From the NCBI GenBank assembly GCA_947172415.1, contig OX359189.1, positions 1,386,501 to 1,450,500 of the forward strand: a stretch of DNA of 64,000 nucleotides, in the 5' to 3' direction. Source of the DNA: Chondrosia reniformis (Eukaryota > Porifera > Demospongiae > Chondrillida > Chondrillidae). Numbering within the stretch: position 1 is the stretch's first letter; each line of letters starts with the position of its first letter. The notes beneath the pieces were generated by a model that saw only the letters and a program-made list of their open reading frames with translations, was not told the DNA's origin and made no database searches. Both the position numbers and the translations under genes were made by a program. Shown one piece after another: positions 3,440 through 61,296 of the stretch.

Positions 3440-6400
3440 ATGGCGACTGGGACCGGTTGGCTTGTTCTTTTTGTTGTACAGCTGCTATTACATGGTTATA
3501 TCCAAGTGGTTATCGGAGGTAAAGTTCCTTTAAAGCTAGCTTCGTATCCACACCAATTAATATTCGCGCGATAAATTATAATACAATGTACGTAGCTACT
3601 GTATATATGCCAATATAGGCTATATCAACTGTCATGCTACTCAGAGAGTATGGGAGTACTCTCTAAGTAGGGATGGCCGAAAAACGTGTGTGCACACATC
3701 TGTATTTTACAGAAGTGATCGTTAGAATTAATTTTACACTATAATATTATAATTCCTAAAGGAGAATATATCTATATATACATTTTGCGGTTTTAATTCG
3801 ACAGTATTACTAGTATGTATTTAAACGTGGAATTTTATATATTAATATATACAGTTTTGTAGTAATTAATAATTGAGTTATCTCTCAACTCTAACTTATT
3901 GAAGCATAGAAGTTGGCATGTATTTATACAGGTATCTCCTGAGTGTATCGATTCACCTCTATAGATAGTATGTTATATATACTACACAATAGGCAACAAT
4001 ACAGGAAATGTATAAATCATCTATTCATATTTTATAAAAATATATAGTATTAATTCATGCCTCCATGTGATAGCTATATATAGAGTTGGTATGTTTACAA
4101 TGAACTATGCAATGCTCTCCTCTGGTTATGCAATCAAGTGACCACTTTTATCTCATATCAGTCTATAATTTTCTGACTGACTCATTCCCAGATTACTTAG
4201 AAAGGAAAAACAACATAGTCTCCTTCCTAAAAAGGTATGGATGTTTAAAGTTTGAAATGCTGAGGAATGTGAATTAGGCACTTTTTGGTTTTCAAGCCAG
4301 ACTATATAGCTGTATAAAGAATTTGTTTGTATATATACTATATAGTCTTCTGATTTGTAGGTCCTACATAATTACAGTTAGCACTAGATATGCACGATCA
4401 TGCTCTTGACCATTGATGTTATATACGTACATTGTGAATGCCACTAACATGTCTTAAATCAATTAATTAAGGGACTGAATGTATGTAATAAATTGTTGAT
4501 AAAGTGATAGTAACCCAAAGTGCACTTTGAATATAAACATTACTTTTGTCTATACCATATATATGTATATTTGTTTACTAATAAAATGTAATGTTAGGAA
4601 TTAACGACATGTATAGCTTCCTTAGGTTCATGTTTGATGTATAGGGATTCATTACAATTACATGTGGCTGTAATGTGAGCCTGTGTTTGAAATGTAGTTT
4701 TTCTGTTATCTCTTCATGTGTGGGTTTACATACATATTTGCAGACCTGTGCTGAGGTTGATTACACCACCATCATAATATGTACACGTACAAAAACATTT
4801 GTATAAGTACCTTATACCTGGAAAAGCCAATTATAAAGCATTCATATATATGCACATTTTGCTAGTATAACTTTGATTATATAATATATTAGTAATGACT
4901 ATTATTTGTGTTATGTCTTTAGGTAAACCCAGTGTAGGAAACACAGAGCTACAATTTGTGCCAGTAAAATGTGGAGCAGAGCTTGTATTGCCTTGCCAAT
5001 CAGATGAAGATAATGCCACCCGCACTTGGTATCACAACAACATCCCAGTAGGAGTTGTACTTACATCTGATTTTATAATATTTTCTGCAAAACCAAATGA
5101 TTCAGGATGGTATACCTGTAGAATAGCAAACATTGATGGATACGATACTATAGAATATTTTGTGGAAGTTATAGGTAGGGACATCCTTGATAGTTTGTTA
5201 GCCCATGCATGATAAGTAAATCTACATTTCTTTGAACCTATATAAAGCACTTTGCATTACATATATATGTGCAACATAAAATTTTACTTTAATTTAAGTT
5301 AAATCATGTGTTGTATATATAGAGGATTATATTGTTTATTGGTCGATGTATGTAACATGTATATATATATATATACGAGTCAAACCTATGTATATGACTG
5401 TTTTGCATAATATATTTGCCATTTTGCAGAACCTCCAGTTATTAAAAGTGATCCGGTGAATGTAGTTACAACTGAAGATATCATCATACCTTTTGCTTGT
5501 GTTGTGCTTGGTGTTCCTGGTCCAGATGTCACATGGTACAGGATTGCACCTGGAGAAGTGAGTTATACATAATGACTTTATGTATAATGCAAATATATGT
5601 ACTAAATGTTTCTTTTTTCACATTCACTAAGTACATATATATCTGATACATGTGTACATCAGTTAAACATTAAACATTCTAGATTTTTACTTTAAAATAA
5701 TGGGGGTTACATGTAGATAAGTGACTTGAATCGTATAGGCTTGTACTTAAAATATTACAATAATTCATAATATACGTATACGTACAATCTGCAATGTAAT
5801 GTCAAAAACACTGGTATATATGCATGTATACATATATTGTAGGTCATGTTTAAATGCCACTACATGCAGCACACAACATAAATGGGTACGTGTAGTTAAT
5901 CTGCATGTGTATAATTTAATATAATACCTATATGTACGTATGTCTGTATATATTTATTAGCCACCTCGTGAAATTGACCCTGATAATCCTGACTTTACTA
6001 TAAGACATCGCTCAGACAATCAACTTGAAGTGAATGCCAGAATTGAATACAATGGAGATAAGTACTACTGTTCAGCTAGTAATGGTTTTACCACAGTTAA
6101 TAGTTCAGAGGCTTTGTTAACAGTATTTCTGCTTCCACGTAAGTCATTCATGCATGCGAAAATATATTCACTCATGCCTTAACTATATCATGGATCCGAT
6201 CATGATATTGTATAGGAATTTATATTCTTTTTATTTATACACCACTTACATACATGTACATATACAAATACATACGTATACGTATATTCGTATAGGGCAA
6301 GACCATGGACTTTTGTCTCATTTCATGCTGTATATATAATACTGTATGTGTGTTATTATTAAACACAAACATATACAGTACATATGTACATACATCTTTA

Positions 6401-9400
6401 TATATAGGTATGCCTAATCCAGATTCAACACTGCAACCACTGTATACTTTAAGAGGTGTCACTGAAATAAGAACAATTTCATGTACTCCATCAGCTCCAT
6501 CTGGTTACAACATTACATGGAGTGTCAATGGAATGATCATGAATAACTTGATGAACCAAAATACTATCACTATAAGTGCCAACTCTAGTCGTGGCGTCCA
6601 TTGCTGTGAAATTATACCTGAATCTGCAGGAAATCCTATTCAATATTGTACCTATGTATTACCATCATGTAAGTATATACGTATATATATATATATATTA
6701 CATACATTCCGACAATTAATAAACTCCATGTATTCTTTAATTCTTCTCTATATAATAGTATGCAAGTACGTACGTACATATATATATGTTTGTATACCTA
6801 GCTAACACACATATGCCTATGTTTGAACAAAAATCTTATTTCGGTCTCTCTATAGTACACAGTTATACACTCCACCCTGGCGTTTACTGAGTTATCGGTG
6901 GGATATCGCATTGTATAACTATAATAAGAGGCCAAAGTGCCTCTTATTATAGTCATACAACAGTTGTAGAATATAATTTGCCTTGGTTGCATTGGAGTGT
7001 ATATATGTAGTAGTTATACCACACTCAAGTGTGATGCATAAGTGATATCTGCCCAAGACTGAAGGTCGAGGGCGGATATCACTTAGCTTCACACATGAGT
7101 GTGGTATAATTAATATATATCACGTATGACTTGAATCAATTGTAAAGGTGATGATAAGTAAACATGAGTAGGCCTACTGGTGATATAACATTTATCACTA
7201 GTTCAAGTGTGAAACATAAGGTTTATATATAACACCCCAGATATCACCCGGTTGACCTGGTAACGTGATATATACATGTATACCATATTTAATATGTAAT
7301 ATATAGTCATTGGTATATATATTATGCATTTATGCCCATATAATAAGCTAGCCATATAAGGATATGTATATTATTGTTTCACATCCATTTTCCAGCATAC
7401 ATGTTTTAAGACGTATAATCTAAGTGAGCCCTTATGGGGTATATATAGCCTGAGGAAATGAATAGACATGTTATATTTATTGTTTCTTCAGATATACCAG
7501 AGCAAGTTAAAATTGGAGTGAAGGGACTCAGTGTCGAAGTTGGACAAAGCCTGGGCATTGAATGTAGATCAGTGGGTGGAGTACCAGCCTCACAACTCAA
7601 TTGGCTCAATGGAGAGAACGAGGAAATTTTTAATGACTTTTCATTTACACTGTCAACGTATTCTCTGCTAGAGGTCCAGTTGAGTGACAGTACTGAAATA
7701 GTCTGTCAAGCTAACAATGGCCTATCACCTCAGCTCTCCAAAAGTATTATATTAAATGTGATTGACCCTCTAACATGTGAGTATATATACTCAGTAAACC
7801 AATAAACCTTGTATATATATAATCATTCACTGCTGCATAAACACTTAATTGTTCTTTATAGCTGGCCTTTCCAGAGATGGTCCAAACATACTGAGCAATC
7901 CAGGTGCTGAGGAGGGAAACTCCCCTTGGCAGTTTGAAAGAAGGCTGCCTAATGATGCTAAAATTACTGATACAAATGGTGGTATGTAGAGCTACAAATA
8001 CAGATGTGTAAATAAATAAATACAAATATATGTGTTCATGTACGTACGTACAGGTGTATAGTACATATAATATATATATCTATGTAACTATAACTCACAT
8101 TTGTATGCATACTAGACCTATATTAATTAAGTATGTACATACATGATATATAGCTAGTATAAATGTAACTCTGCATGCATAGCATTAAGTAATTAAAAAT
8201 TCCCTGCATCACTTTGTGTATGATTTTGACATATTACAATTAGCTATTAAATTCTGCATATATTGTTTTTACATAATTATTAAATACATTTATTATAGAG
8301 AACGTATTTAGCTTACGGTATCCTCCAGATATCACAGAACAGGATATTCCATCTATAGTACAGACTTTTGATATTGAAGGAAATGAACAGATTATTGGCC
8401 TCAGGCTAAGGTACCATACTACATGTATTATAGCATTACATGGTATTCTTTTCCTCATACATCATTAAATAAATTTACAACCCATTTTTAGTTTAAATTA
8501 TCCGTACGTAGATGTAATTTTAATGAAATCTTGTCTCAGCAGTTTATAATATACCATATTATATATTCTTCTGTACATATAGATGTATTGTTTATAAGTT
8601 ATGTAATTATCTATGCACATATTATTTAATCTTTATATTATAATTCCAATATTAGAGTGTATAATATACATATATAGCAGTCTGCCACCCTCAAAGGCTG
8701 CTAAGCAATTAAATATAAAAGTTTTAATCTACAACTATACATGTATATCTTTGTAAAGGTTCATCTTTTGACTTTGGGAGCGTCTAGAGACACAGTTTTT
8801 TCGATTCTTCTTTCTGCCAAATGTTTTGACCCTGGGGTACTTCTTCAGTGACATACATGTATACATGTATACGTATATAAAATTTAGTTGTAAATATTGC
8901 ATAACATTCTATCATGCTTCTACAGTGCACGAATGCGTGTAGCCATGCCAAGTACTTCCAATGGAATAATTTTACCTGAAGTAGTTGTGGATTTTGAAGG
9001 AAACGTATATGAACTGGCGTGGCCAAGTGAAATGACTGAATTCAATGCATGGCACTGGGTCTCTAGGGATATCACTATCACACCGAGCAGTGCCAGAAGA
9101 CAGGGAGAAGTGATATTGACTTTGGGTGACAGAGGTGCTACCAATGTGGGTGGAGAGGTCTACCTTGATGATATTTCAATTGTACCTTTAATGAGTGAGG
9201 ATAGATTGCCTACTATATTATTCTAATTTATATATAAGTTTTCAAGGTTTTCTGTTTTTCTTATGTAGTGTCTGGTACTACTGCAACAGACCCTGATTCT
9301 CTGCCTATCATTATTGGAGCAACAGTTGGAGCATTAATGCTTGTTACCATAATAATTCTGTTAATTGTATTCATTTGTTGCTTTTGTGGTTGTTGTGTTT

Positions 9401-10294
9401 GTTGCAAAAGGTTAGTTGATGCATACTAGTAATTGGTAAACGTCTAAGTACCTGTGTGCATGGGTATATATACCTTTATTTATCAACCTTTTGACCCACA
9501 CACACTTCATATAATACACAACAATTTGAATCACATGATTGTTAGTATAAATATGATATTTTTGATTTCATAGAAATGATGCTATTAAAATGAGAAAAGA
9601 AACTATTATAAAAAGATTATCAAAGAAAACTGTAAGTCTTATAAGCTCAAATAGTCATTGTAGTCATTGAAAATTTTTAAACATTAATTTCTTTCAAAAT
9701 GTATAGACTCGACATTATGTTCCTGATCCCACTAAGAACACTAGAGCTCCGCCCCTTGGGGATGAGGGCCAGTATACTTCTCTAGAGGAGCGCTCTGAAG
9801 CTATCTACACCAAACCAGATGACACATATGAAACAGTTACTACACCAGGGGAGGAATACGAAGACATGTCAGGAGACAAGTCAATCAAGAAAGAGGAATA
9901 CTACTACATTCAGGCACCTGCATCTGTTCCTAGCAACTCTCACAGTTCATCCAGTATTTCAGGCCAACCTCCAAGGAGCAGTATTAATAGTGATAAGGTT
10001 AAGCAAGTTTCACTGGCCATGAATGATTCTTCATATGTTCAGCTGGTGGACGGGCCTCCACTACCTGCCAGGAACAAGTCAGGTTCAGATGAGCCGAAGA
10101 CTTCAGTTCCACCTTCAAAGTTACAAGAAGCAGAAGGTGCCAATGACCCACCAGAAGGTACCAAAGATCAATCGGAAGGTACCAAAGATCCAGTGGAAGG
10201 TACCAGTGATCAACCGGAAGGTGTTTTTCCAATGACTGAAGAAGAGGAAAAGGACGAAACAACGGAATATTATGAAAAGATAGATATCAATTAG
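3440..10294 (+). CDS. Four-Ig transmembrane receptor A with tyrosine-motif tail
   Basis: Predicted 823-residue cell-surface receptor from 12 exons: 3440-3518, 4923-5174, 5430-5557, 5961-6138, 6408-6668, 7492-7776, 7862-7981, 8299-8410, 8926-9194, 9269-9410, 9574-9631, 9707-10294. All splice sites are GT-AG, phases agree, and the total length is divisible by three. Order: signal peptide (1-26); Ig1 (27-110, LPCQS and DSGWYTC); Ig2 (111-212); Ig3 (213-299, with a vicinal CC); Ig4 (300-394); a galactose-binding/CBM-like sandwich domain (395-561, NILSNPGAEEG to VYLDDISI); TM (about 574-598); CCFCGCCVCC; tail. Tail tyrosines include DEGQYTSL (Y651), IYTKP (Y662), YETV, YEDM (Y679), SSYVQL (Y738) and YEKI near the C-terminus; PPLPAR is an SH3-type ligand. 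There is no kinase domain. Ligand and function are unknown; an adhesion or allorecognition/immune role is inference from architecture. Confidence 0.9.
6860..7110. repeat. Two long inverted-repeat hairpins in receptor A intron 5
   Basis: Hairpin 1: a 14-bp perfect stem (6919-6932 with 6939-6952) around loop CAAAGT, inside an outer pair ATACACTCCA / TGGAGTGTAT. Hairpin 2: 7014-7109, arms of about 40 bp starting TTATACCACACTCA / TGAGTGTGGTATAA, with an inner stem TAAGTGATATC / GATATCACTTA. They are either MITE-type elements or long pre-miRNA-like foldbacks. Confidence 0.75.
8778..8862 (-). repeat. Copy of the GAAGAAG-AGGGTC intronic element
   Basis: Read on the minus strand, this segment in receptor A intron 8 runs CACTGAAGAAG, CAGGGTCAAAACATTTG, an A/G-rich stretch, then TCTCTAGACGCTCC. 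The same order appears in receptor B intron 10 within 17419-17594. It therefore looks like a second insertion of one small interspersed element. Confidence 0.65.
10131..10220 (+). repeat. In-frame 21-bp coding repeat in receptor A tail
   Basis: Four head-to-tail copies of a 21-base unit beginning GAAGGT encode variants of the heptad EGTKDxx, followed by a partial copy. The paralogous tail in receptor B (about 18421-18462) has only two copies. Unit number changes tail length without changing frame. Confidence 0.85.
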
Positions 10295-10719
10295 ACCATG
10301 GTCATCATATTATACATATAACTCTACTGTATTATATACTGCATATAAGCATCTTTTAGTTCACCAGTTACTCTCTTAATTGTCTTTAAATACTGAGTTT
10401 TAATTATCCATTCTTTATATTATACACCACTATATATAGAGAGAGATATATGACATAATATATAAGATTCATTTGCAATGAATTATGATGGCAAGACTAT
10501 ATTCGCATATATATAGTCGTAATTAATTTATGCACATCCTGTATTATATGCTCACTGTCTAGGAAGTGTTATAATCTATTATGCTCCTTTTGGGGTGTTG
10601 TATAGCAATAATTTAACACATCATTCGTTAACTTTTAACGGAATGTCCTAGTATATAGGTACATTTATGCAGGCGTTGCGGTGTTCTTAGTTCAGTACCG
10701 AAGCGCTATATAAAATATC
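10295..10719. other. Spacer between receptor A and receptor B
   Basis: A 425-base AT-rich gap must hold the receptor A 3' end and the receptor B promoter. A TATATAAAA-like string at about 10706-10714 lies only a few bases before the receptor B ATG, too close for a TATA box unless the 5' UTR is minimal. I see no other element. Confidence 0.45.
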
Positions 10720-13700
10720 ATGAAGACAAAACTAACGCCTTCCACCAGTTCATTTATACTGCTTGTGCTGCTTTTGAAGAGCCTATCACATACGTGTTTC
10801 GGAGGTAAGCGCTGCTTGTCATAAGTAGTATGGGTAGCTATGCCAGACCTATATTGCCTCCCTTTCGAGTCGCCACCAGTATATATTTATCTGCAATACA
10901 GCCACACTTTCAACTGAGTGTATAGTTTTATGGTTATACTGTTTACTTGTTTTGTATAGACTAGTAAGGAAACCCGCGAACACAAACCGTTTAAATTTTG
11001 ACTAATATTTGAGCATTAACCTGCAAACCTTGCATTGTATAAGCCAGTCAGCTCAATTTCTATATACAATAATATCCGAAATACAGAGCTGATACAAGAC
11101 TTATCACTATAGCCCTAATTAATTCCTCTTAAGGTGATTTTCATGTATACACTCCTACAATACAATACAATACAATATTTCCTATTCGTGGCAATGTAGA
11201 AAGGTAAAGGAAACATATATATTCATTCAGGATTCAACAAGTATGTTTCAGATTATCTTAACAATAACTAAATTCAACAAGTCCATGTTTCTATATTATC
11301 TTAACAAAGAGGTTTTTGATATATGCATTGGAATGTATGTATATATCTAATTGTATTTACGTAGCTATGACTTCTGGTTATGTAATAATTAACCACTATG
11401 TTGTATTGGCTCATTTTGATGAGTTCTTTGAGTAAGGAACTTACAATATAAAGGGCAGGGCATCAGAGGCATAGATAAAGCACTTTTTTGTTTTCAGACC
11501 TGAATGATGCTAGACAAACAAAACTTGACTTGTGTAGATATATAATAAAGCAATCAACATGAAGAGGTCTTACATATATGTATAGTGGCGTAGTAATTGT
11601 GTCTGCGGAATTTGTTACTTAAAATTTAATGCTGTTGCATATTATGTATGCATCAGAGTGTCTATGGCAGACTCTCTAAGTAGGGATTATGTATATATAA
11701 TATTCCTGCTGCTGTAAATTATAATCAGTTCAAAATCTACCTCTATAAAGTATACCCATAGTAGCAACGAGTCTCTTTAGTATTATATATAATCCTCACT
11801 CTATAATACTCCATACATGTGCAGTACATACATATGTGTATTTACATGTACACATATACTGTATATATAGGCTTTCATATGAATACAATATATATCACAT
11901 GTATACATATATTATGATCAGGTATATTTGAAGTTATGGTTTTCAATATAATATTTTCCTGACTTCAGTGATTTGACTTTCATTCTGCAGTTGTTTTAGT
12001 GATATATACTGCTCCAACATTGACTTGCTCCCACTCAATCCTTACAGTCACACATTTTTGCACATTGAAGCTGTACATTGCTAATTGTTGGCTTCCACCT
12101 TTGATCATGTCCCAAAGAGTGACCTATATATAGGCATCCTTATAAATGTAGATTTTCTGTATATTATATAATAAATATTTATATACATGTGGGAGCTAGG
12201 GTCATTTCCAATCTTCAAATGATACTATAATGATCTAAGGAGTTGCACAGAGACTCTCTTTTTACATCATCGCTTGGGTAACCAAGCCATAATTTAAAAG
12301 ACATACCTTGGATAAGTAGCTACGTAATTGTGTATATTGACAAGCAGTACAAGTCATCTCTTGCATTTTTAATAACAAGGGCAAGCCTTCTTTGTAGTGT
12401 ATATGTAACACCTGCATGTTAGAAAGAGTCTGTTCATGTACTTATAAACTTGTGAACATTGACAGGCATATACGCATGTATTACTTTTTAACAATGTACA
12501 TGTGTGACATTGTACAATTATATAGGAATTATAACTAAACATTTATTACTATTATAGCTTTGGAAGTAATTGAGGCACATATGTAGTTTGAACATTTAAA
12601 GATTTTTGGATTCAATTGATTCGGATATTGTTAAATTAATAATTAAAAAAGGGTTCAATCTTAATTATAAGATATTGCATTTTTTACTATTGTATGTGTT
12701 ATGTCTTAGGTAAACCAAGTGTAGCAAACGCAGAGCTACAATTTGTGCCTGTAAAACATGGAGAGGAGATTGTATTGCCTTGCCAATCAGATGAAGATAA
12801 TGTTAATTTTGCTTGGTATCACAACAACGTCCCAGTAGCAGCTGTGTTTCCACCTGAATTAAAGATACCAGCTGCAAAACCAAATGATTCAGGATGGTAT
12901 ACCTGTAGAATAGCAAACATTGATGGATACGATACTATAGAATATTTTGTGGAAGTTATAGGTATGTGTATCTGTAAATATAAAATATGTATACATGTAG
13001 CCCTCTGAATTAGTAAGGGCCAATTTACGGTACCACATTTGTGGTTTGCTTATTAGGCATATTTATCTACGTAAGTACGAATCTAGTGCAACTCTGAGGT
13101 ATTGTATTTTATACTTGATGTTCGACTATTGCCATAAAACAGAGACCTACATAATTATATATTTAAATGTTTACATATCTTGTAAATTAATGCTTCAGAG
13201 ATGTATGTATGTAAATAGCCTACAGGACCTAGAGCTCCATGGATCCATGTTCATATTACATTATTGTTTATTATTATATCTTGCACCAATTATGTGTATA
13301 AATAATACATATAGCTTGTACCTACAAATATATCATATATATTATATATTGATTATGCATGCGCAGAGCCTGCAAATATTAAAATTGGTCCAGTGCGTGT
13401 AGTAGCAACTGAAAACATGATCGTACCCTTTGCTTGTGCTGTGACCGGTGTTCCTGGTCCTGAGGTCACATGGTATATGAGTACATCTCCTGGAGGGGTG
13501 AGTATGAATGGCTTTATATACGTACTTATACGTACGTACGTATATATTTATATTAACTATATACACGTACGTATACATATGTGTGTCAGAAAGTGGTTTC
13601 TCTGTACACATGCATATGAACATATGAATATAGGTAGAAAAATTACATAATACGTACGTATCTCTTTGGCAATATACGTACGTACATGCTAAGAAAGTTA

Positions 13701-16700
13701 TTATATCATCCTTTAAAAGTTTGCATTTAGTGTATACAAAAATTATTCTTATTTTGCCAGCTATTTGTACATCTACATACGTATATATAGTAAAATAATT
13801 TGTAGTGTGTATTATACTAAGCTGTGTAGTGGAGAGCAATCCTGTTTATATACTACATATACTAAAATGATTAGATTCTGATTTTGACAATCAAACCTTA
13901 AGAAAGTCTACCAACACAGCCTCCTAAGAAAGCTATTAAAGTACTTCTTCCACTGCAGATACCATTTGAAATTGACTATGATGATCCTGCATTCAATTTT
14001 CGAATTGACTCAGACAATCAGCTAGAAGTGAGGGCCAATCAAAGAACAGATAAAAATGTATTTTTCTGTTCTGTATCAAATGGTGCTACTATGGTCAATA
14101 GCTCTGAGGCTGAGTTGTCTGTAATACCACCACCGCCACCAAGTAAGATTTATATATATGTACATACATGTTCATAGGTATAACTAGGCATATGCATTTA
14201 TGTTTATATACGTATGTACTTACGTACGTACATACGCAGGTACATATTTTATAGAGTATATACGTATGTATGCATGTGTGTGGTTGTGATGAATGAGTAC
14301 GTATTTTGTACATGTATACAGAAACCCAAGGCAATAATGATCCTAATCCACCAATTGAACCATTAATTACTTTGGGACCAGGTCAATCTAGGATGATTAC
14401 GTGTATTACAAATCCACCTCCTGGCCGTAATATAACCTGGAAAGTTAATGGAAAAACAAGACCTGATTTGGCAAACAGTGAAGCTATAAGAGTTGATAAT
14501 GAACGGGGAGTCCACTGTTGTGAAGTTATAAACACATCCAATCAACAGATTGTAAGGTCACAGTGTACCTACGTATTACCAGCACGTGAGTATATGTATA
14601 TACAAATATGAATGTACGTAACTACATGCACTTACAATGTTTAGCTTTCAATACGTATACTGTATGAAAATACTTTTCTTTAGTATGGTAGTACTATTTG
14701 AACCACCTACGTATGTAACTCTCACTATTACCATGTACACAGACACACACTGACTCAATACAGGCACACACACACACAGACACACACATGCATATGTTTA
14801 CTGTATATATACAGTATACGTACATGAAAAATCTAAGATACCATTTTCCTACATGCTATGCCTATTCTGTAAAAGAGCCTATAGGGAACTAACACACAAA
14901 AGATTAAATTGAAGTGTATATACATATTAAATATACATGCATACTTGTACACTAACACACAAATTGAAGTGTATAAATATACACATGCATGCTTGTACAC
15001 TAACACACAAATTGAAGTGTATAAATATACACATGCATACTTGTATGTAGAACCACCACAACTTAAGATTAATGTGGAGGAACTCAGTGTTGAAGTTGGG
15101 CAGAGCTTGGGAATCCAATGCCAAGCAATGGGTGGAAGACCAGCCTCACTACTTAGTTGGGTCAATGAAGAAGAAGAAGAAATTTTTGAAGATTTTTCCT
15201 TTACCCAGTCTATATTTCTGGTTGAGGAGGTAAAACCAAGTGACAGTATTGAAGTCTTCTGTCAAGCTGAAAATGATATTTATGAACGGATTTCTCAGCA
15301 GTCTGTTTTGCTGAATGTGATTGATCCATTGACATGTGAGTAGAACATGCAAGTGCACACTCGAAATACCAATTGACATATACATATATACACATATATA
15401 TAACCTATCATAGGATGGAGTAAACTTACGTAATATACGTATGACATGTGTACAATTATGTACCAATACATACAATGTACCTAGTACGTAGATTTACTTA
15501 ATAATATTTCCTGCGCCATGTCTACATAATTTTACGTGATGTGCTTCCACGATTATTAAATTTGTCTGTAAATGTCTTTATCCAAGCCGACACTTACGTA
15601 TTCTTTATAGCTGGCCTTTCCAGAGATGGTCCAAACATACTGAGCAATCCAGGTGCTGAGGAGGGAAACTCCCCTTGGCAGTTTGAAAGAAGGCCGCCTA
15701 ATGATGCAAGAATTGAATTTAGAAATAATGGTAAGGAGGTCTACAATTATATGTAGATGTGTACATACATACGTTCATTGGCTAAGCGACTTTCCCAGTC
15801 TAAGTAAGACAATAAATACAACTTCACGTGCATTATAACTGTTACAATACATCTGTATATATAAAGTGCATATATATATATATATATATATGTACATATG
15901 TACATATAATACAATTTTGACAGCCAATATAAAATATTATACATACGTATGTACATATAGTATGTATTTAGAAATTGTTTGCATTGATCATTTTATATGA
16001 ACATATTAGCTATAGAATCCTGTATTTAAGTTGACAATGTGTACATAAATTTATGTTAGTGACTCTATTATATAAAGTATAACTCTTTTATACATATATA
16101 CATTTATAGAGAACGTCTTTAGCTTACAGTATCCCCCAGATATCAGTGAACAGGATATTCCATCTATAGAACAGACTTTTGATATTGAAGGAAATGAACA
16201 GATTACTGGTCTCAGGCTAAGGTAACATACTACAGGCATTATAGCATTACATGGTATTCTCTGATTACTTTCTAATTCCATTCTAAGATAACCTACGTGT
16301 GTACCAATATTCATGCACATGTAAAGTTTACACCCTCCATAATAGTCTGCCACCTTCAAAGGTTGCTATAAGCAAATATATTAGCTATAATCTACAACAT
16401 ACATATATATAAAATTCAGTTGTAATATTACATAACATTCTATCATGCTTCTACAGTGCACGAATGCGTGTAGCCATGCCAAGTACTTCCAATGGAATAA
16501 TTTTACCTGAAGTAGTTGTGGATTTTGAAGGAAACGTATATGAACTGGCGTGGCCAAGTGAAATGACTGAATTCAATGCATGGCACTGGGTCTCCAGGGA
16601 TATCTCTATCACACCGAGCAGTGCCAGTAGACAGGGAGAAGTGATATTGACTTTGGGTGACAGAGGTGCTACCAATGTGGGTGGAGAGGTCTACCTTGAT

Positions 16701-18541
16701 GATATTTCAATTGTACCTTTAATGAGTAAGGATAGATTACCTAATATACGTATGTGCAATATACGTATCTTTAATTTTTAACTTCTTTTCTCAACAACAA
16801 CTAGGTCCTATAGTTTCTGATCCTCTGCTCATTATTGTTGGAGCTACAATGGGAGCAGTAGGCCTTGTTATTATAGTAGCGATTTTAGTCATTGTATTCA
16901 TTTGTTGCTTCTGTGGATGCTGTTTTTGTTGTAACAGGTAAGCTGTTATTTGTGCAAGAACGTATGTACAGTATGCGCATATCATGTTTACGTATATATA
17001 CACTCAATCCTCGGGCACCTTGGGACCAGGCACTGTCTGTAACTCAGAAAATTTGAAGAGTATAGCTGTTTTATATACAAATCGTGTAAGGTACGATGCT
17101 TGCTGTGCGAGGAAAATGAATTTCAAAATCGACTTCACACTTCGCAGCTGAACTTGTTAACTATTATTCACATTCTTGGCAATCAAAAAGATCAGTAAAC
17201 ATGTTTGCCTTCAAAAATCGCCGTGAATGCAACCGTTGTCATTGCCATTTTGTTTACTTGCTGACTCAGCAACCACTTCATGCTGCTCATGATCAGTAGA
17301 GGGACGTGCCCGTATCTGGCCTGGGGCGTCCGGATAAGGGAGGATTGAGTGTATTGCATGTGTATTATTAGTAAATCATCATTAGATGATAAGGGTTTCT
17401 TCAAACTGCACCAAACTTATCTTTGAAGTGGTTCATATTGAGCATCTAGAGACATGTTCACTGAAGAAGACCCTAAGGGTCGAAACATCTGAAGAAAAGG
17501 AAGAAGATAAAAAAACAACTGCATCTCTAGATGTTCCATAGTTTTGCATACCATTAACACATCACACTGTTTATAGATGAACCACTTCAAAGATATAATC
17601 ATCATGTTACTAATTTTCATCATCATCATGAAATCTAATATATCAATGTGACTTCTGATAAGTTTACCATACTATTAGTTCCTTTGTGATGAAAATAATT
17701 TAACAATATTTACTCAGTAATTATAATGTGTCTTGCCTTTGTTCATTTTGCAACTCATTATCAGTGTTATATACATATATATGTAGAGCCTAATAGTAAC
17801 GTTAACCTTTATATGTTTATATATATTATAGAGGCAATGCTACAAAAATGAGAAAGGATAGTCTTAGAATGAGATTACCAAAGAAAAGTGTAAGACTCTC
17901 TTTATTTAAAAATTATATGTATATACTGTATGAAATGTTTGTATCTTGAATCATTTACATATGCATCACTTATATAATCACATTAATATACGTACATTTC
18001 TTAGACTCATCACTATGTTCCTGATCCCACTAAGAACACTAGAGCTCCGCCCCTTGGGGATGAGGGCCAGTATACTTCTCTAGAGGAGCGCTCTGAAGCT
18101 ATCTACACCAAACCAGATGACACATATGAAACAGTTACTACACCAGGGGAGGAATACGAAGACATGTCAGGAGACAAGTCAATCAAGAAAGAGGAATACT
18201 ACTACATTCAGGCACCTGCATCTGTTCCTAGCAACTCTCACAGTTCATCCATGGCCAGTATTTCAGGCCAACCTCCAAGGAGCAGTATTAATAGTGATAA
18301 GGTTAAGCAAGTTTCACTGGCCATGAATGATTCTTCATATGTTCAGCTGATGGACGGGCCTCCACTACCTGCAAGGAACAGGTCAGGATCAGATGAGCCA
18401 AAGACTTCAGTTCCACCTTCAGAAGGTACCAAAGATCCAGTGGAAGGTACTTATGATCAACCAGAGACTGTCATTCCAATGACCAAAGAAGAGGAAAATG
18501 ACGAAACAACTGAATATTATGAAACTATGGATATCAATTAA
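10720..18541 (+). CDS. Four-Ig transmembrane receptor B, tandem paralogue of A
   Basis: Predicted 809-residue receptor with the same 12-exon plan and exon phases as receptor A: 10720-10804, 12710-12961, 13367-13497, 13959-14142, 14322-14585, 15051-15335, 15611-15730, 16110-16221, 16457-16725, 16805-16937, 17832-17889, 18005-18541. Signal peptide, Ig1-Ig4, galactose-binding-like domain, TM and CCFCGCCFCC follow in the same order. Ig2-Ig4 and the TM have diverged from A, while the 3' part of Ig1, the sandwich domain and the proximal tail are nearly identical. The tail keeps DEGQYTSL, IYTKP, YETV, YEDM, SSYVQL and PPLPAR. It has only two EG-heptads, gains a YDQP tyrosine, and ends YYETM (YxxM) where A ends YYEKI (YxxI). 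Intron 10 (16938-17831) carries a MITE. No kinase domain is present; ligand unknown. Confidence 0.9.
14889..15050 (+). repeat. 48-bp minisatellite ending at a splice acceptor
   Basis: Three tandem copies (the first diverged) of a 48-base unit starting CTAACACACAAATTGAAGTG and ending CTTGTACA. The last copy ends CTTGTATGTAG and directly forms the acceptor of receptor B exon 6 at 15051. Receptor A lacks it. Confidence 0.85.
17419..17594. mobile_element. MITE-like element in receptor B intron 10
   Basis: Perfect 18-bp terminal inverted repeats, ATCTTTGAAGTGGTTCAT at 17419-17436 and its complement at 17577-17594. They bracket a short body with CACTGAAGAAGACCC, AGGGTCGAAACATCTG and a second, inner inverted pair around CATCTAGAGA. 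There is no coding capacity. It shares its core with 8778-8862. Confidence 0.75.
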
Positions 18542-23262: not shown

Positions 23263-23905
23263 ACTTCAGAGCAAAATTTTAACTTCAGAGCAAAATTTTA
23301 ACTTCAGAGCAAAATTTTAACTTCAGAGCAAAATTTTAACTTCAGAGCAAAATTTTAACTTCAGAGCAAAATTTTAACTTCAGAGCAAAATTTTAACTTC
23401 AGAGCAAAATTTTAACTTCAGAGCAAAATTTTAACTTCAGAGCAAAATTTTAACTTCAGAGCAAAATTTTAACTTCAGAGCAAAATTTTAACTTCAGAGC
23501 AAAATTTTAACTTCAGAGCAAAATTTTAACTTCAGAGCAAAATTTTAACTTCAGAGCAAAATTTTAACTTCAGAGCAAAATTTTAACTTCAGAGCAAAAT
23601 TTTAACTTCAGAGCAAAATTTTAACTTCAGAGCAAAATTTTAACTTCAGAGCAAAATTTTAACTTCAGAGCAAAATTTTAACTTCAGAGCAAATTTTAAC
23701 TTCAGAGCAAAATTTTAACTTCAGAGCAAATTTTAACTTCAGAGCAAATTTTAACTTCAGAGCAAATTTTAACTTCAGAGCAAATTTTAACTTCAGAGCA
23801 AATTTTAACTTCAGAGCAAATTTTAACTTCAGAGCAAATTTTAACTTCAGAGCAAATTTTAACTTCAGAGCAAATTTTAACTTCAGAGCAAATTTTAACT
23901 TCAGA
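23263..23905 (+). repeat. 19/18-bp satellite block
   Basis: About 35 tandem copies of AACTTCAGAGCAAAATTTT. The first two-thirds use a 19-base unit. From about 23690 on, one A is lost, giving an 18-base unit. The change to a multiple of three creates a minus-strand frame of (SEVKIC)n, which I regard as a product of the repeat. Confidence 0.95.
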
Positions 23906-25198
23906 AAGAGAAATCAACTGGCCATGGATTTTCATCTTTTAAAGGTTAAGACATGTTTCATTATAAAAAAATCAGTTTGTATTATATTATTTCTCTACAT
24001 TCTACAGGTTCAATTGGCATATAGAATTCTTTTACTGTATGGACTTCTTTAGTTCTGGACTCTCCTTCATCCTCTTTAACTATAGCAATGTTTTCTGTGG
24101 ATTTACAACTTTGAACTGGCTACCCGGATTCATTTTGACTTGCCACTTGAGCTGGCGGTCCCTGGTCTGTTTTTTACTTTACCACTTTTAGCTGATTGTC
24201 CATATGTTCTGTTTTTTGATCTACGTATACGTACGTACGTACGTATCTTGTCACTTTGAAATGACTTGACGCTGCTTGGTTTTGACTTGCCACTTTGAGC
24301 TGGCTGTTGATTATTTGTATAGTTAACTAAATACGTTCAAGAATGGCCTTTTGCATTGCAATTTGGTATTTGGCATTATTAATGGATCAGCAGATTGGCA
24401 TTATAATTCTGCAAGATAGGTACTTTTAAATTTGGTTGCATTTATCAATTTAGCAAGGTTTGCATTTATCAATTCAGCAAAATTGACATTTGCATGTCCT
24501 AAGACATTCAGCGTATTCAGCAAGGAATAATTTTGCTTTAGGAAGAAAACATGGAGGAATTTGAATGCTAATTTCATCTTCTGAATTCTAAATTTGGTTG
24601 CATTTATCAATTTAGCAAGGTTTGCATTTATCAATTCAGCAAGATTGACATTTGCATCAATGTCCTAAGACATTCAGCATATTCAGCAAGGAATAATTTT
24701 GCTTTAGGAAGAAAACATGGAGGAATTTGAATGCTAATTTCATCTTCTGAATTTAAAATAACTACTTCAACTTAATGCCAGTAGCAAGAACAGTTAACTG
24801 AAAATATCTTAACTGTAAAGATAGTCTACATGCCACTGGAAATATCTTAATCGGATAGTCTGCAAGCCACTGATAAAATGGAGTAAATAAATGCAAATTC
24901 AGAGCTTAAATTCAGAACTGAAATATATAATTCAGACAGAAAGATTACAGCAAGCAATGGATCTCGTATTTTGAAGGTTTGAAATGTAATATACATGTAA
25001 TTCAGTTGTATTAAATATTTTCTACATTCTACAGGTTCAGAAAGCTGTACATTTGGCATGGCAATCTTTATACAGTAAGAGATACACCAAGCAACCAGAC
25101 TCTTTGTCTTTTGAAGGTTGGACATGTTCATGTGCACATTATTCAGTTGTATATTGCAATATTTTCTTACATTCCATATAGGTTTTTATCATATCTAC
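23906..25198. repeat. Diverged duplicated modules with intron-like blocks
   Basis: A block of about 90 bases ending TTCTACATTCTACAGGTTC occurs at about 23925-24012 and 24960-25038, with a weaker copy at about 25110-25190. Each begins TTTTGAAGGTT or similar and ends like a splice acceptor. A unit of about 165 bases, starting AAATTTGGTTGCATTTATCA and including TTTTGCTTTAGGAAGAAAAC, is duplicated at about 24426-24590 and 24591-24755. No coding frame is supported. Confidence 0.65.
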
Positions 25199-31449: not shown

Positions 31450-33927
31450 CTAGTCAAACGAAATGCTAATCTTGACTGGTGAGTCATCACTCCCTGAGCT
31501 AAGTCTCCTCTCTGCCTCCCCCAAGTAGTGGAACTTGTAATTCTTGGCAAGGTTGCGCATGAGGATGCGAAGAGGAAGCCACCAAAGTGTCTCCACCTTT
31601 GGCATACGGTGCTTGAAATTGGTCTTATTCCGGAGGAGCACCAGAGGTGTGAAGATGTAGTTCTGACCTACAAACCCGATAATGGCAGCTGATTCGGGAG
31701 ATCTTGCATCTATCACTCCATCAGTTGAATTCTTTTCAATCTGTTCCAACATAAATGGAACTGCCTTAGACCCCATCTTGGCTCCAAGGATCCTATCATA
31801 AGGTGAGGGGGATCCCCCTTGTTGGATGTGACCCAGGACATTAGCTCGACTCACAAAGGTCCCTTTCCCCTCTCCATTGAAGAACTTACTGATAAAATCG
31901 GCAGTGTAATCTTGGTGTGCCTTCTCGCAGCAGAGGACCATACCTTTCTTTACCCCCTCTTTGAACTTTCCGGTCATGTGAACCAAATCATCGTACAAGT
32001 CCTTGAGGCCAAATGGTTCCTCCATTATGTACGCATTATCAGCTGCTCCAGCAAGAGCACCCATACTGGCCAGATAACCACAACAGCCTCCGTGAGTCTC
32101 CACCACAAAGATCCTCTTTCTGCTTGCCAGCGAGGATTGCCTCAGCTTGTCACAACTCTGTATGATGATGTTCAGAGCAGTATCGCTGCCAATGCTGATG
32201 TCAGTGCCTGGAACGTTATTGCTGATGGTGGCAGGAGTACCTAGCAGAGGGATACGGAAACCTCTGTACTGCTCACGGCTCTCCATCATCAGGAGCAGGG
32301 ACTGGTAAGCTTCAAAACCTCCAATGATGAAAAGGCCACTAATCTTCAATTTCTCCAGTCTTTGGGCAATCTTTGGCAATGTGGTCGGGGTAGGAATTGT
32401 ACGATTTGTACCAAGATTGCATCCACCATCCCTCACCCACCCTTCTACATCAATCCAAGAGAACTCCTTCAGGAAATCCTCAGATCCATTTAGGAGGCCC
32501 TCAAATCCCTCACAAATGCCAACAACCTGATGTCCTTCATGCAGCATGACCCTAACAAAGGCACTGATACAACTGTTCACACCACAAGCTGGTGCACCCA
32601 CTTGCATGACTGCAAACCTATGCAGTACCTCAGGCACTCGTTCAGTACAGACATTGTTGAGAGTGCTCGCCATTTTGAGGTTACGTCCAAAACTGGATCC
32701 CCTCAGAATACAGACTGTATCAAAGTCCTTGGACTGCATGAGTTGGTTGACCTTTTGTGTCTTTTCAACCGTATCCATCATAGGATGGTCCACCACTTGG
32801 TTACCCTGCATGGCCATGATTACAGGGTTCACCTCTCCATTAGCCTCCACATGATGTAGCACCGCAGTAGCTCCAAGACGGCAACCAATCAGTCTGTCAT
32901 AGTAGGAAGGACTTCCCCCTCTCTGCAGATGTCCCAAGACAGTGATTCGAGTGTCATGCTGGAGTCGTTTTTCCAACACTTCTTTGACATAGGTAGAGCT
33001 GATGCGGACATTATGACAATCCACAGCTCCTTCAGCAATGATAATCAGACTCATTCTTCTCCCTCGGTCCCGAGCCTGCTGGATAGTCTGGCACATCTTG
33101 TCCTCCCAGCCTGCGGTCATCGGGTTCTCAGGCAAAATGAACCAATCCGCTTGTCCTGCAATGGAGCTCATGAGCGCCAGATAGCCACAGTGCCGGCCCA
33201 TCACCTCGATTATGAACGACCTCTGATGACTATCAGCAGTACTGCAGATGCAGTCAATGGCATCCACTATACGATGGAGGGCAGTATCCACACCAATGGT
33301 GATGTCTGTGTCACACATGTCATTGTCAATAGATCCCACTATGCCTACTACATTCAGATAACCAAACTCCTCCAAGGCCGAGGTGTCAATTCTTCCCTCG
33401 CGAACGAGGTCTTCTAGCAAGTCCTTCCATTCCTTCTTGAAAATGTTAGCTCCAGTAAGGCTTCCATCTCCGCCAATGACAATCAAGTGATTGATGCCGC
33501 GCTTAACCAAATTCTCCGCAGCGCGAAGACGACCGGCACGGTCTCTAAAGGCCTTACAGCGGGCTGTTCCAATGATCGTACCACCGCGTTGGATAGTGTC
33601 CGAAACGTCTCTCCAAGAGAGCTCCCTAATAAGGCTACCTCCGTCAACCATTCCCTGGTAACCCTCGTGAATGGCAAACACTCTCATTCCCTTGCTAATA
33701 CCCATACGCGTCACGGCCCTGACACAGGGGTTCATGCCAGGAGCATCTCCTCCGCTTGTCAACACACCGAGACATTTCTTTGCGGCTCCCTCCGGTATAG
33801 TCGAATCACGACCAGCACCACTCGAAAGTGATCTTACAGACTGAGGACGTGGCTCTTCTTCAGGAGCGTTTAGAGGGATAAAATAGCGATAAATAGATCG
33901 CAGTACTATCAATGCTAGGGAGAGCAT
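31450..33927 (-). CDS. PFK: ATP-dependent 6-phosphofructokinase, intronless
   Basis: Catalyses fructose-6-phosphate plus ATP to fructose-1,6-bisphosphate, the committed step of glycolysis. A single uninterrupted frame of 825 codons encodes the animal double-domain form. The N-half has GVLTSGGDAPGMNP (55-67), GGDGS (152-156), SIDND with the catalytic Asp equivalent at 201, and MGR (243-245). The C-half starts at GAPACGVNSCISAFVR and has the degenerate repeats expected of the allosteric half. The ATG at 33927 begins with a hydrophobic leader, MLSLALIVLRSIYRYFIPL, before the family core. The next Met is inside the core, so this start is the natural one unless an upstream exon exists. Absence of introns contrasts with its neighbours and suggests a retrocopy that remains open and apparently functional. 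It starts 143 bases after the DPY19L stop. Confidence 0.95.
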   Translation of the reverse strand: MLSLALIVLRSIYRYFIPLNAPEEEPRPQSVRSLSSGAGRDSTIPEGAAKKCLGVLTSGGDAPGMNPCVRAVTRMGISKGMRVFAIHEGYQGMVDGGSLIRELSWRDVSDTIQRGGTIIGTARCKAFRDRAGRLRAAENLVKRGINHLIVIGGDGSLTGANIFKKEWKDLLEDLVREGRIDTSALEEFGYLNVVGIVGSIDNDMCDTDITIGVDTALHRIVDAIDCICSTADSHQRSFIIEVMGRHCGYLALMSSIAGQADWFILPENPMTAGWEDKMCQTIQQARDRGRRMSLIIIAEGAVDCHNVRISSTYVKEVLEKRLQHDTRITVLGHLQRGGSPSYYDRLIGCRLGATAVLHHVEANGEVNPVIMAMQGNQVVDHPMMDTVEKTQKVNQLMQSKDFDTVCILRGSSFGRNLKMASTLNNVCTERVPEVLHRFAVMQVGAPACGVNSCISAFVRVMLHEGHQVVGICEGFEGLLNGSEDFLKEFSWIDVEGWVRDGGCNLGTNRTIPTPTTLPKIAQRLEKLKISGLFIIGGFEAYQSLLLMMESREQYRGFRIPLLGTPATISNNVPGTDISIGSDTALNIIIQSCDKLRQSSLASRKRIFVVETHGGCCGYLASMGALAGAADNAYIMEEPFGLKDLYDDLVHMTGKFKEGVKKGMVLCCEKAHQDYTADFISKFFNGEGKGTFVSRANVLGHIQQGGSPSPYDRILGAKMGSKAVPFMLEQIEKNSTDGVIDARSPESAAIIGFVGQNYIFTPLVLLRNKTNFKHRMPKVETLWWLPLRILMRNLAKNYKFHYLGEAERRLSSGSDDSPVKISISFD

Positions 33928-34070
33928 GACGACAGAAAGCTTTCAGTATTTACCAACAGAACACTGCCGCCATTTGTCCGACTGGTCGGAACAATGTGAC
34001 CAAGGTTAATTGGGTCCAATAGTGACCTTTCATGCATATAATAATCGAAAATAGTTTATAGGTTAAAAAC

Positions 34071-44992: not shown

Positions 44993-47900
44993 CTATCGTA
45001 ATGTAACTGATGTTCCTGTAAATAGTCGGGACACGCCCATTACAATGACCACGCCCCCAGCCACACACATAATGATGACATAGTGACTGATACTTATTCC
45101 AATGTCCAACCAGCTCCCCTCATCTTGGACGAGGAAGAAGAACTGCAATCCCATTATATCAGAGAGCACCATGGTCAGTAATAGGCTGAGCCGCTGTGGC
45201 TGGCCAGCGAGAAGGAGGACCAGATTGAGGGCACAGCCAACCAGGAGGAAGGGAATAACAATCTTAAAGATGATCAAGGCTCCCATTATAAAGGGGGAAA
45301 AGACAGTCTTGAAGCAGTAGACATAGGATGGATCAAACGTGTTGATGCTGGCAATGTTGCCAGTTCCAAAGAAGGAGAGTACACCAAAGAAGAGAGGCAT
45401 AACCACGCGTCTGATGTCTGAATACTTTAGGAAATATTGTCTTCTCTCAGCTTGCTGTTTGTAGGCTATGCTGACCCTGTGGATATCCACATCAACACGG
45501 CCAATCACATAGACCTTCGGACTCAAGTGCTGTTCTAGAACTATCCATTGGAAGAGCAGTGCTCCCAGCAAGAGAACAAAGATGGCTTCAAAGGAGTTGC
45601 TAAGGAGAATGTAGGGTGTCATGAGAGCAAGAAAGATGGCTGCCAGCCTGGAGGTGACGCTCTTGGCAGAGAAGAAGGGAGTGATGATGCTTTGAAGGAG
45701 AAGAAGCCAACTGCATACATGCACAAATAGGGGAACAGATGATTTGGAGGATATAAAATATCTGGTAACTTCTACCAATACTGATGCCAACACTATTCCA
45801 GCACTTTGAAAAAAAGTAAATCTTTTGTAATGAGCCCCCTCGAAGTGACTTGCTGCTAGTGCAACCCTGCCCATCCAAATCACTGCTACAAGCACCAACA
45901 CTGAGGCAACGTGCACAAACATGTACATGGGATTGCGGCCAACAGTCGGCAGCAGTGGAAAGGCAGCCAGAGCTAGACAGTTCACCAACCACCCCACACA
46001 GAGGGAGCGTTGCTGTTTGAGCTTGAAGGAGGTGAAGGGCCAGAGGGAGACAGCCACCAACAGAAGAGACAGGCTCCAGCGATGAAAGAAGCTGAGAACT
46101 ATTCCTTCTATGATGAAGAAGAGGATGGCAAACCTGTATATGGATAAGACCTCGCTGTACCAAACATAGCTGAGGAGCCTCAGCACTGCCTTTCCCTCAC
46201 TGACAGCACCAAACCACAGGAACACAGTCATCAGTGTGTAAACATAGTGTAAAACTGGAGAGGACTGAATATACAGCAACAGAACTATTACAGTGGACAT
46301 GCTAATTAATGCATAATTGTAAGTAGTCTTGTGTGATGTCGGCATATTTGTCTTTTCAACTGACTGTGGAGTAAATTCTAGTTGTATAACAGTCAGAATG
46401 CTGACCATCCAGCCAATGAAAGCCAGTGAGAGCACTATAAAGAGGTAGGTTCGATGATACTTGTTATAATACTGAATAGCCTCCTCCGCCAATCCAATCA
46501 ATACTTTAGTATCCTTCAAAGATTCCTCAAATTGTCCAGATTTTAAAGACATTTCTATTTTATCCTGCCATTGAGCAATATCTTCAGGGTGTAGCTTTGG
46601 GTATGGGCGCAGGAATACTTTCAGTGATGTCTCCAAGACGTGAATGTGCTTGACCAGTACTTGCTCACAGAGCTGTCTAGCATTAGTATACAAGCCCCAG
46701 GCTCTTAGAGCACCATCAGGTACGAGGAAGTCCACTGGAAGGATCCCCTCACTGTTGACAGGGATGGGACGACCAATCAATGTAGACATGAGAGGTGCTA
46801 TGTCTGCCTGATTCACATCACTTTGCTTCAAGTGGGAAAGTCCCCATGACAGACTGTAAGAGTCGGCGGCCATCTTGTTATCCTCTGTTGACTGTGTGGG
46901 TGGTCTGATCCCAGCTCCCCAGGCCACCAGTGGAGTCATGGTCTCCTCGGGGAGGCCAGCCCCGTGGGATCCCCAATCTGTCATGCCGTGATCTGAGGTG
47001 AACACATAGGCAGTTGAGCCATCTTGGAAGAAGCTCTCAAAGACAGCAACAATATCCATTATACCTTGATCAACAAACCTGACATTATTGATGTAATCAT
47101 CTGAGTAAGGTCGATGGGCATGTCCATTTGTATCTATACCAAGGAGATGAAGAAAGAAGACATTTCCATCTTCCTGAAGCTGTTGCATGAGATGAGAGTT
47201 AGATGAGGCCTCATTGAAGAACTCCTTCACCTTATCAAACACCCAGAGGTCAAGTCTGGAGGCGTCCAGGTTAGCAAAGTCTTCCTCCTCTGATCCGTAC
47301 ATGTATGTGGTCACTCTTCCCCGAGCAGCTCCCTTGGCAAACATGGGGAGGATGTCGGGGCTGCCCCAGGACCAAGTGTGGCGGCTCTGGTTGAACACAG
47401 AGTCAAACTCCACTGGGTTCTCCTGCCATCCTCTGGTGACAGCACTCACGTCCTCATAGAAACCAGCTATGATGGCCACGTGACCAGGCCGGGACTCTGT
47501 GGGCACGTGAGTATGGGACACGCCCCAGGCTCCTAAGGAAGAGAACAATAAATACAGTAAAACCTCACTCACCAGTCAGTTCCAATATGGTGGTCTTAAT
47601 AGTGAGTTAATGAGGTTCCACTGTAATAATTTATAAGTTGCAGTTTCCGATCGTGAAGCAACAAATTTAGGCGTATGTGAAAACTAAACTGAAGAAAATA
47701 ATCTACAACTAGGTCGACAATCACTCTTCTCTTCCAGAAAAGGTTTAAAAAGTATCTCACTTAGTAAGTTCAGAACAGCGATTCATACAAAAAGTAACGT
47801 CCGAAATTAGGACTATCTATCACTAAACACACCTTTGTTCTCGATAATGCTTCTGAGGTACGGAGCCAAAGTTGTTCCTTCTTTGCGGACTGAAAAAAAC

Positions 47901-61236: not shown

Positions 61237-61296
61237 CGAGATTCGGAGAAGCCCTGTATATGAGGGGATTTCCCTTGGTGGTCTCAGTTTTGAAAA
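61237..61296. promoter_or_regulatory. 60-bp gap between divergent dsRNA-binding gene and SEC63
   Basis: Start codons at 61236 (minus) and 61297 (plus) leave 60 bases for two promoters. No TATA box is visible. Confidence 0.55.

Follow-up and report, generated by a model that had tools for sequence, protein, structure and literature searches.

We analysed a 64,000-nucleotide stretch of the genome of the sponge Chondrosia reniformis (C1:1,386,501-1,450,500; hereafter the window), in which two neighbouring genes, here called A and B, appear to encode proteins with immunoglobulin (Ig) domains, one predicted transmembrane (TM) helix and a tyrosine-rich cytoplasmic tail; a third, more distant gene of the same contig, C, enters the comparisons below. 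The genome searched comprises 117,379,552 bases in 15 contigs, and the odChoReni1.1 assembly is given as 117.37 Mb, with 14 chromosomes and a mitochondrion, in passages of its genome report (PMC12181767). Gene A (3440-10294; 823 aa) begins at ATG 3440 and gene B (10720-18541; 809 aa) ends with a stop at 18541. They lie in tandem on the + strand, as do all their features given below, and each has 12 exons in a splice-site model built from the sequence. Both models are open throughout, every intron uses GT/AG and the exon phases agree between A and B, which bears out the two tandem paralogues proposed by the first-pass annotation, made from the letters alone; its guess at a sponge-like genome was also right. 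The exon 1 sequences of the two genes are unlike each other: exon 1 of A (3440-3518) carries the start, a hydrophobic stretch and a phase-1 GT donor, and exon 1 of B (10720-10804), likewise with the start and a predicted signal peptide, was the sole candidate when hydrophobic ATG exons ending in a phase-1 donor were sought. Signal peptides and TM helices of A and B were predicted by reading the sequence directly.

The ectodomain of A starts with Ig domain 1 in exon 2 (4923-5174; best Pfam Ig_3 stretch aa 39-96), followed by Ig domain 2 in exons 3 (5430-5557) and 4 (5961-6138; Pfam I-set aa 113-207), Ig-like domain 3 in exon 5 (6408-6668; splice model and alignment of A, B and C) and Ig domain 4 in exon 6 (7492-7776; Pfam ig aa 312-380). 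In B, the splice model places Ig domains 1-4 in exons 2-6 (12710-12961, 13367-13497, 13959-14142, 14322-14585 and 15051-15335). The Pfam matches over cut-off in A and B are exclusively Ig-type models: Ig_3 and I-set are strong in both and over cut-off in C as well, and C2-set_2 is barely over it. Four Ig domains had been claimed, and this count holds, with three Ig_3 stretches in A and four in B; domain 3, to which Pfam gives the least support, keeps the conserved Cys and an RGV-x-CCE motif in the alignment of A, B and C. The description of these domains as variable-looking fared worse, as V-set scores of 11.1 in A and 25.7 in B fall short of the cut-off of 26, and in C V-set is marginally above it on Ig4 (26.1). 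No kinase domain is matched in A, B or C by Pfam, as the first-pass annotation had said, and no sushi match was found in A or B (Pfam E<=1) or C (E<=10). With Ig domains over cut-off, a predicted signal peptide and one TM helix, A and B are predicted receptors of the immunoglobulin superfamily (IgSF). Searched against PDB, the ectodomain matched 110 sequences, and titin, Dscam, Robo, sidekick, neurofascin, DCC and receptor protein tyrosine phosphatases lead among the 60 listed.

Several points were absent from the earlier reading: a membrane-proximal domain, a Cys-rich juxtamembrane segment, a conversion mosaic and paralogue C. The membrane-proximal domain, of about 165 aa, occupies exons 7-9 between Ig4 and the membrane (A: 7862-7981, 8299-8410 and 8926-9194; B: 15611-15730, 16110-16221 and 16457-16725); it is near-identical between A and B and conserved in C at 36%. 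Exon 10 (A: 9269-9410; B: 16805-16937) encodes the predicted TM helix followed by the Cys-rich segment, CCFCGCCVCCK in A and CCFCGCCFCCN in B, a feature also kept in C. For the membrane-proximal domains of A, B and C, no Pfam family matched at E<=10. Against PDB there were five insignificant matches (best a LysR regulator, 0.49), among them a CBM-type endoglucanase (1.2) over just 18 residues, and a profile of the domain gave a single insignificant match (0.41). Neither prokaryote genome contigs (111 pattern stretches) nor viral contigs (85) held a confirmed relative. The N-x-x-S-x-PGAE...W start and the G-x-VY-x-DDIS end are reminiscent of carbohydrate- or galactose-binding-like sandwiches; with neither Pfam nor PDB giving a significant match, the domain stays unassigned. 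Structure prediction for B exon 9 alone, half of the domain, was all-beta and too poor for use (pLDDT 46, pTM 0.28).

Gene C was reached through weak matches to the B ectodomain at C1:1,082,806 and 1,084,020 (E 0.001). It lies at C1:1,082,783-1,087,055 (L030:4784-9056), about 303 kb upstream of A, and was modelled with 11 exons, whose phases are as in A and B and whose product is 31% identical to A; a scan for its first exon gave no candidate. As genome queries, neither the A/B tail nor the membrane-proximal domain plus TM of B recovered C, and the C tail did not recover the A/B tail exon. Because the searches missed known members, the family size of two tandem genes plus C is a lower bound. 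The remaining genome matches at E<=0.1 are Ig domains or TM stretches, including C8:5975720 and C8:7750175, which match C TM stretches (E 0.02 and 0.095). Two further loci, both on C13, were rejected as members after inspection by eye: C13:4298456 (E 0.03; L031) encodes a large extracellular protein that has a TM and a different tail, and C13:6249919 (E 0.001 over the C TM and tail; L046) begins sushi-like and includes a Ser/Thr-rich stretch, a TM and a different tail. By eye, C1:10270936 is a multi-Ig protein. Elsewhere, clusters of Ig-domain matches larger than the window pair lie at C6:8.12-8.20 Mb and C1:9.88-10.02 Mb.

Divergence between A and B is strongly uneven along the genes. The synonymous divergence (dS) of exons 1-6 is 0.78, 0.20, 0.40, 0.95, 1.52 and 1.22, and that of exons 7-12 is 0.06 (0.059), 0.17 (0.167), 0.017, 0.63, 0.44 and 0.11; silent divergence exceeds 1 in the Ig3 and Ig4 exons and is zero over about 100 tail codons. 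In this tail stretch (9716-10045 in A), 110 aligned codons have the same DNA sequence as in B, interrupted by a single two-codon gap; it is the longest identical run, followed by runs of 49 (exons 8-9) and 32 codons (exon 9); none of 10,000 permutations gave runs as long as these three. Further runs of 29 codons lie in exon 7 and across the last third of Ig1 and the start of Ig2. The ends of intron 8 are also highly identical (94% over 52 bp and 92% over 39 bp), and seven of the ten introns from 2 to 11 gave no match between A and B. Such a mosaic fits gene conversion of the 3' part, and since the diverged exons 10 and 11 separate two homogenised parts, more than one conversion event would be implied. 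Because the tail stretch is homogenised in this way, its sharing by A and B says little on selection for motifs, and the weight that had been placed on motifs common to both paralogues is much reduced.

The ratio of nonsynonymous to synonymous divergence (dN/dS) in the Ig exons is 0.23-0.67, with the dS values above 1 near saturation. Where Ig1 diverges most (A aa 57-81) the ratio is 0.98 (Fisher P=1.0), and diversifying selection was rejected as a reading. We do not read the high single-window values as selection: the untested one at aa 63-92, for example, has dN 0.21 and dS 0.13 (12.7 and 2.3 changes), and exon 7, within the homogenised part, has a ratio of 1.86 on 9.5 and 1.5 changes.

The cytoplasmic tail is encoded by exons 11 and 12 (A: 9574-9631 and 9707-10294; B: 17832-17889 and 18005-18541). 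All the strings that had been picked out in it occur in both genes: DEGQYTSL (A 9761-9784; B 18059-18082), IYTKP (9803-9817; 18101-18115), EYEDM (9854-9868; 18152-18166), SSYVQL (10028-10045; 18332-18349) and PPLPAR (10055-10072; 18359-18376). To these we add TYETV (9824-9838; 18122-18136) and, in A, EYYYIQAPASVP (9896-9931). To see how many motifs chance would give, the A tail, with 11 tyrosines, was shuffled 20,000 times, P being the fraction of shuffles with at least as many matches. It turned out that the immunoreceptor tyrosine-based inhibition motif (ITIM; P=0.28), YxxM (0.20), YxxP (0.68) and PxxPx[RK] (0.21) are each expected by chance, several of these named motifs being expected because the tail has so many tyrosines. 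A loose pattern for the hemITAM, the half form of the immunoreceptor tyrosine-based activation motif (ITAM), gave P=0.03, and this pattern was picked after seeing the sequence. Only YxxPhi, with 6 matches against 1.6 expected (P=0.0017), is clearly enriched. The B tail gave similar values and is not independent of A.

The hemITAM core of Dectin-1 and CLEC-2 is acidic-Gly-Tyr-x-x-Leu. The strict pattern [DE]{3}GYxx[LI] has no match in the tails of A, B or C, and the loose pattern is found in A and B only. ITAM spacing, Yxx[LI]x6-12Yxx[LI], is absent from all three tails. The ITIM pattern [SIVL]xYxx[IVL] has one match each in A and B and none in C, and the C tail has no YxxM and no counterpart of DEGQYTSL, IYTKP or PPLPAR. 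The specific labels, among them hemITAM for DEGQYTSL and a p85-type site for YEDM, are not supported; SSYVQL fits the ITIM consensus, at chance level and with no strict ITIM in C. What survives the comparison with C is more general. The A and C tails are homologous (Smith-Waterman score 88; shuffles with mean 45 and s.d. 8, and none of 2,000 as high). In the MAFFT alignment of A, B and C four tail tyrosines are kept, one in TYETV/LYDTI, one in EYEDM/EYADV and two in YYI, and YYIxxPxSVP is common to the A/B and C tails. An A-C alignment with cheap gaps pairs tyrosines in six columns, including SSYVQL/GQYLEL, a number reached by 7 of 1,000 shuffles. Over TM and tail, the GRB2-binding adapter model GAPT matches below threshold (A 16.2 of 21.1 bits, E 0.009; B 12.7, E 0.11). 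The tail evidence thus favours a generic tyrosine-docking tail, and the immune motif names for the A/B strings are unproven. Given this homology, with several tyrosines retained in both A and C, a phosphotyrosine-docking role is a reasonable reading of these sequences.

The genome also holds candidate partners for such a tail, with 82 SH2 profile matches. A gene on C5 combines SH2 with ankyrin repeats within a single frame, its best solved relative being SYK (E 2.5e-17); its strand also bears a second SH2 and the kinase signatures HRDLAARN and DFGLSR, as pieces not spliced into one model. By its sequence this gene follows the Shark/HTK16 plan and would be a Shark-type (Syk-related) kinase; part of PMC10253181 describes Shark as a relative of Syk in invertebrates that has a region of ankyrin repeats. 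On C3, the exon order SH2, SH2, protein tyrosine phosphatase occurs twice, as in SHP phosphatases, which marks SHP-like loci. A weak p85 candidate lies on C6, where an iSH2-like stretch (26.2 of 31.5, below cut-off) comes after an SH2. Two kinases considered with a classical Syk in mind point elsewhere: one on C4 near SH2 exons is closest to CTR1/TNNI3K-type kinases, and one at C9:1502757 is Fes-like; 134 of 1,104 kinase candidates were scored in looking for a Syk without ankyrin repeats. Two neighbouring minus-strand frames at C9:1353500-1362500 (L032, 1824-3008 and 6125-7189) have three SH2 matches each, and at C4:2,906,000-2,963,000 (partly covered by L036-L039) SH2 exons and kinase frames form an array. 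Tyrosine-phosphatase matches are densely packed at C6:0.61-1.26 Mb and C13:1.65-1.96 Mb, with Ig matches nearby on C13; these are possible large receptor phosphatase families and perhaps better candidates for a variable repertoire.

Gene structure, family, tail homology, mosaic divergence and candidate partner loci come directly from the computation, and on them we think that A, B and C probably form one small family of type I IgSF receptors with a tyrosine docking tail, serving signalling adhesion or recognition. For all three we infer surface location, ligand binding, phosphorylation, docking and palmitoylation. In the mechanism that we propose, Ig1-4 would bind a partner presented by an adjacent cell, the matrix or a microbe, with the membrane-proximal domain as spacer or second binding module, and the Cys-rich, perhaps palmitoylated, segment would keep the tail at the membrane. 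Upon clustering, Src-type kinases would phosphorylate tail tyrosines (YETV/YDTI, EYEDM/EYADV, YYI and perhaps YVQL/YLEL), which could then become docking sites for SH2 proteins, for instance an SHP-like phosphatase, a PI3K subunit or the Shark-type kinase. Conversion would keep the tail and membrane-proximal domain of A and B alike while their Ig domains differ, giving two ectodomains with one output.

A signalling role is plausible for these receptors as judged from sequence, and several observations weigh against it. YxxPhi also serves as an endocytic sorting pattern, and in the C tail it is not significantly enriched (3 against 1.4 expected, P=0.14). YVQL/YLEL is paired in one of three alignments, the cheap-gap one, and not by MAFFT or local alignment. 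Of 14 control genomes, 6 also gave matches under the cut-off in the iSH2 search, and for this reason, together with its own score below cut-off, the p85 candidate is weak. Besides, the immune-type hemolin, FcRL5 and Fc gamma RIIb are among the PDB matches of the ectodomain, ranked lower. Of the first-pass interpretation, IgSF-type receptors with a long tyrosine-rich tail in a sponge are supported, the genome also having Shark-type and SHP-like loci and a weak p85 candidate, and the specific motif labels are not supported.

If the tail signals via SH2 proteins, the family would offer a sponge test of the age of Ig-receptor tyrosine signalling; tyrosine motifs on Ig receptors are placed in cnidarians, molluscs and tunicates in the parts of PMC11999971 and PMC12065747 that bear on them. 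Of note, too, are its extracellular domain, to which the searches found no relative, and the clear homogenisation by gene conversion of a tail and membrane-proximal domain beneath differing Ig domains, with the caution that motifs common to A and B are no evidence of selection on those motifs.

Among other explanations, the one that survives best, still a doubtful one, is that A and B are plain adhesion molecules whose tail provides cytoskeletal linkage and YxxPhi endocytosis, without dedicated signalling. The leading PDB relatives are adhesion and guidance receptors, sponge IgSF proteins are chiefly tied to adhesion and intercellular recognition in passages of a review (PMC11999971), and the YxxPhi enrichment suits sorting equally; however, the several tyrosine modules common to A/B and C exceed the need of one sorting signal.

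It is unlikely that A and B are allorecognition or immune receptors like Hydractinia Alr or Botryllus FcoR, with polymorphic ectodomains and a hemITAM-like and ITIM-like tail read by Shark/Syk and SHP. They are Ig receptors with a tyrosine tail, their ectodomains differ above a shared tail, Shark-type and SHP-like loci exist in the genome, and Ig receptors with ITIM or hemITAM motifs are reported from Botryllus and Hydractinia in parts of PMC12065747. However, two genes and one remote paralogue were found (a lower bound), the motifs are no more frequent than chance would give and have not been retained in C, and dN/dS is below 1 in the Ig exons, the A and B sequences compared being one haplotype. 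The neighbourhood also argues against it: at 19-64 kb of the window, six of the ten listed long frames were scanned, and the four named are phosphofructokinase, PIG-N, a dsRNA-binding protein and a fibrinogen C-terminal protein. The word "immunoglobulin" is absent from the main text of a sponge grafting study (PMC5450542). A self/non-self recognition role of A and B is not established.

Equally improbable to us is a two-gene paired-receptor system, in which a converted shared module would sit beneath differing Ig faces and the hemITAM-like DEGQYTSL, in a receptor family that already uses YxxPhi modules, would be read by the Shark-type kinase together with SHP-like phosphatases. If true, it would bring Ig-receptor activating and inhibitory tyrosine signalling to sponges, beyond the animals from which it is reported; no ITIM- or hemITAM-type Ig receptor of a sponge was found in the open full-text literature with the terms used, as judged on titles and abstract starts of the papers listed. 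A microbe-sensing immune receptor, as reported for oyster CgIgIT2 with its five Ig domains, TM and tyrosine motif, is very unlikely: the overall plan is similar (PMC11999971, in part) and Ig-domain genes are among microbial-signal-regulated genes of three sponges in passages of PMC8242945, yet A, B and C have no ITAM spacing.

Of the named frames in the rest of the window, that with the fibrinogen C-terminal domain (E 1.3e-44) is at 53300-54028 (+), and phosphofructokinase, PIG-N and the protein with three dsRNA-binding stretches are at 31450-33942, 44993-47575 and 59992-61329 (all -). A tandem repeat at 23660-23910 reads as repeated NFRANF or ILTSEQ depending on frame.

Among known systems, the sponge Ig proteins include the GSAM adhesion molecules and the Ig-containing receptor kinase GCRTK of Geodia. 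As far as descriptions go, these are sponge cell-surface proteins with Ig-like domains, as A and B are predicted to be, and A and B differ in having no kinase. Ig-like sequences are noted in a Geodia adhesion molecule in part of a review (PMC11999971). Botryllus FcoR is, as A and B are predicted to be, a type I TM Ig receptor with a long tail, which in FcoR can carry ITIM, hemITAM and YxxI/L/V core motifs; according to passages of PMC12065747, FcoR combines a variable-type Ig domain with a sushi domain and two Ig domains of C2 type and lies in the fuhc locus. Unlike FcoR, A and B have four Ig domains (mainly I-set/Ig_3), no Pfam sushi match and the extra membrane-proximal domain. Oyster CgIgIT2, also a multi-Ig TM receptor of an invertebrate with a tyrosine-motif tail, has five Ig domains and an ITAM in the same review (PMC11999971, in part), whereas A and B lack ITAM spacing. 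The first-pass annotation had likened the layout to Hydractinia Alr, which has an Ig-like ectodomain and for whose candidates ITAM and ITIM motifs are reported in PMC12065747, in the sections concerned; the general plan agrees, and in place of the large clustered Alr family we found a tandem pair and a single paralogue some 303 kb distant. In conclusion, with the defining features of Alr, FcoR and CgIgIT2 failing in each comparison, it is their general plan that holds in these sponge receptors.

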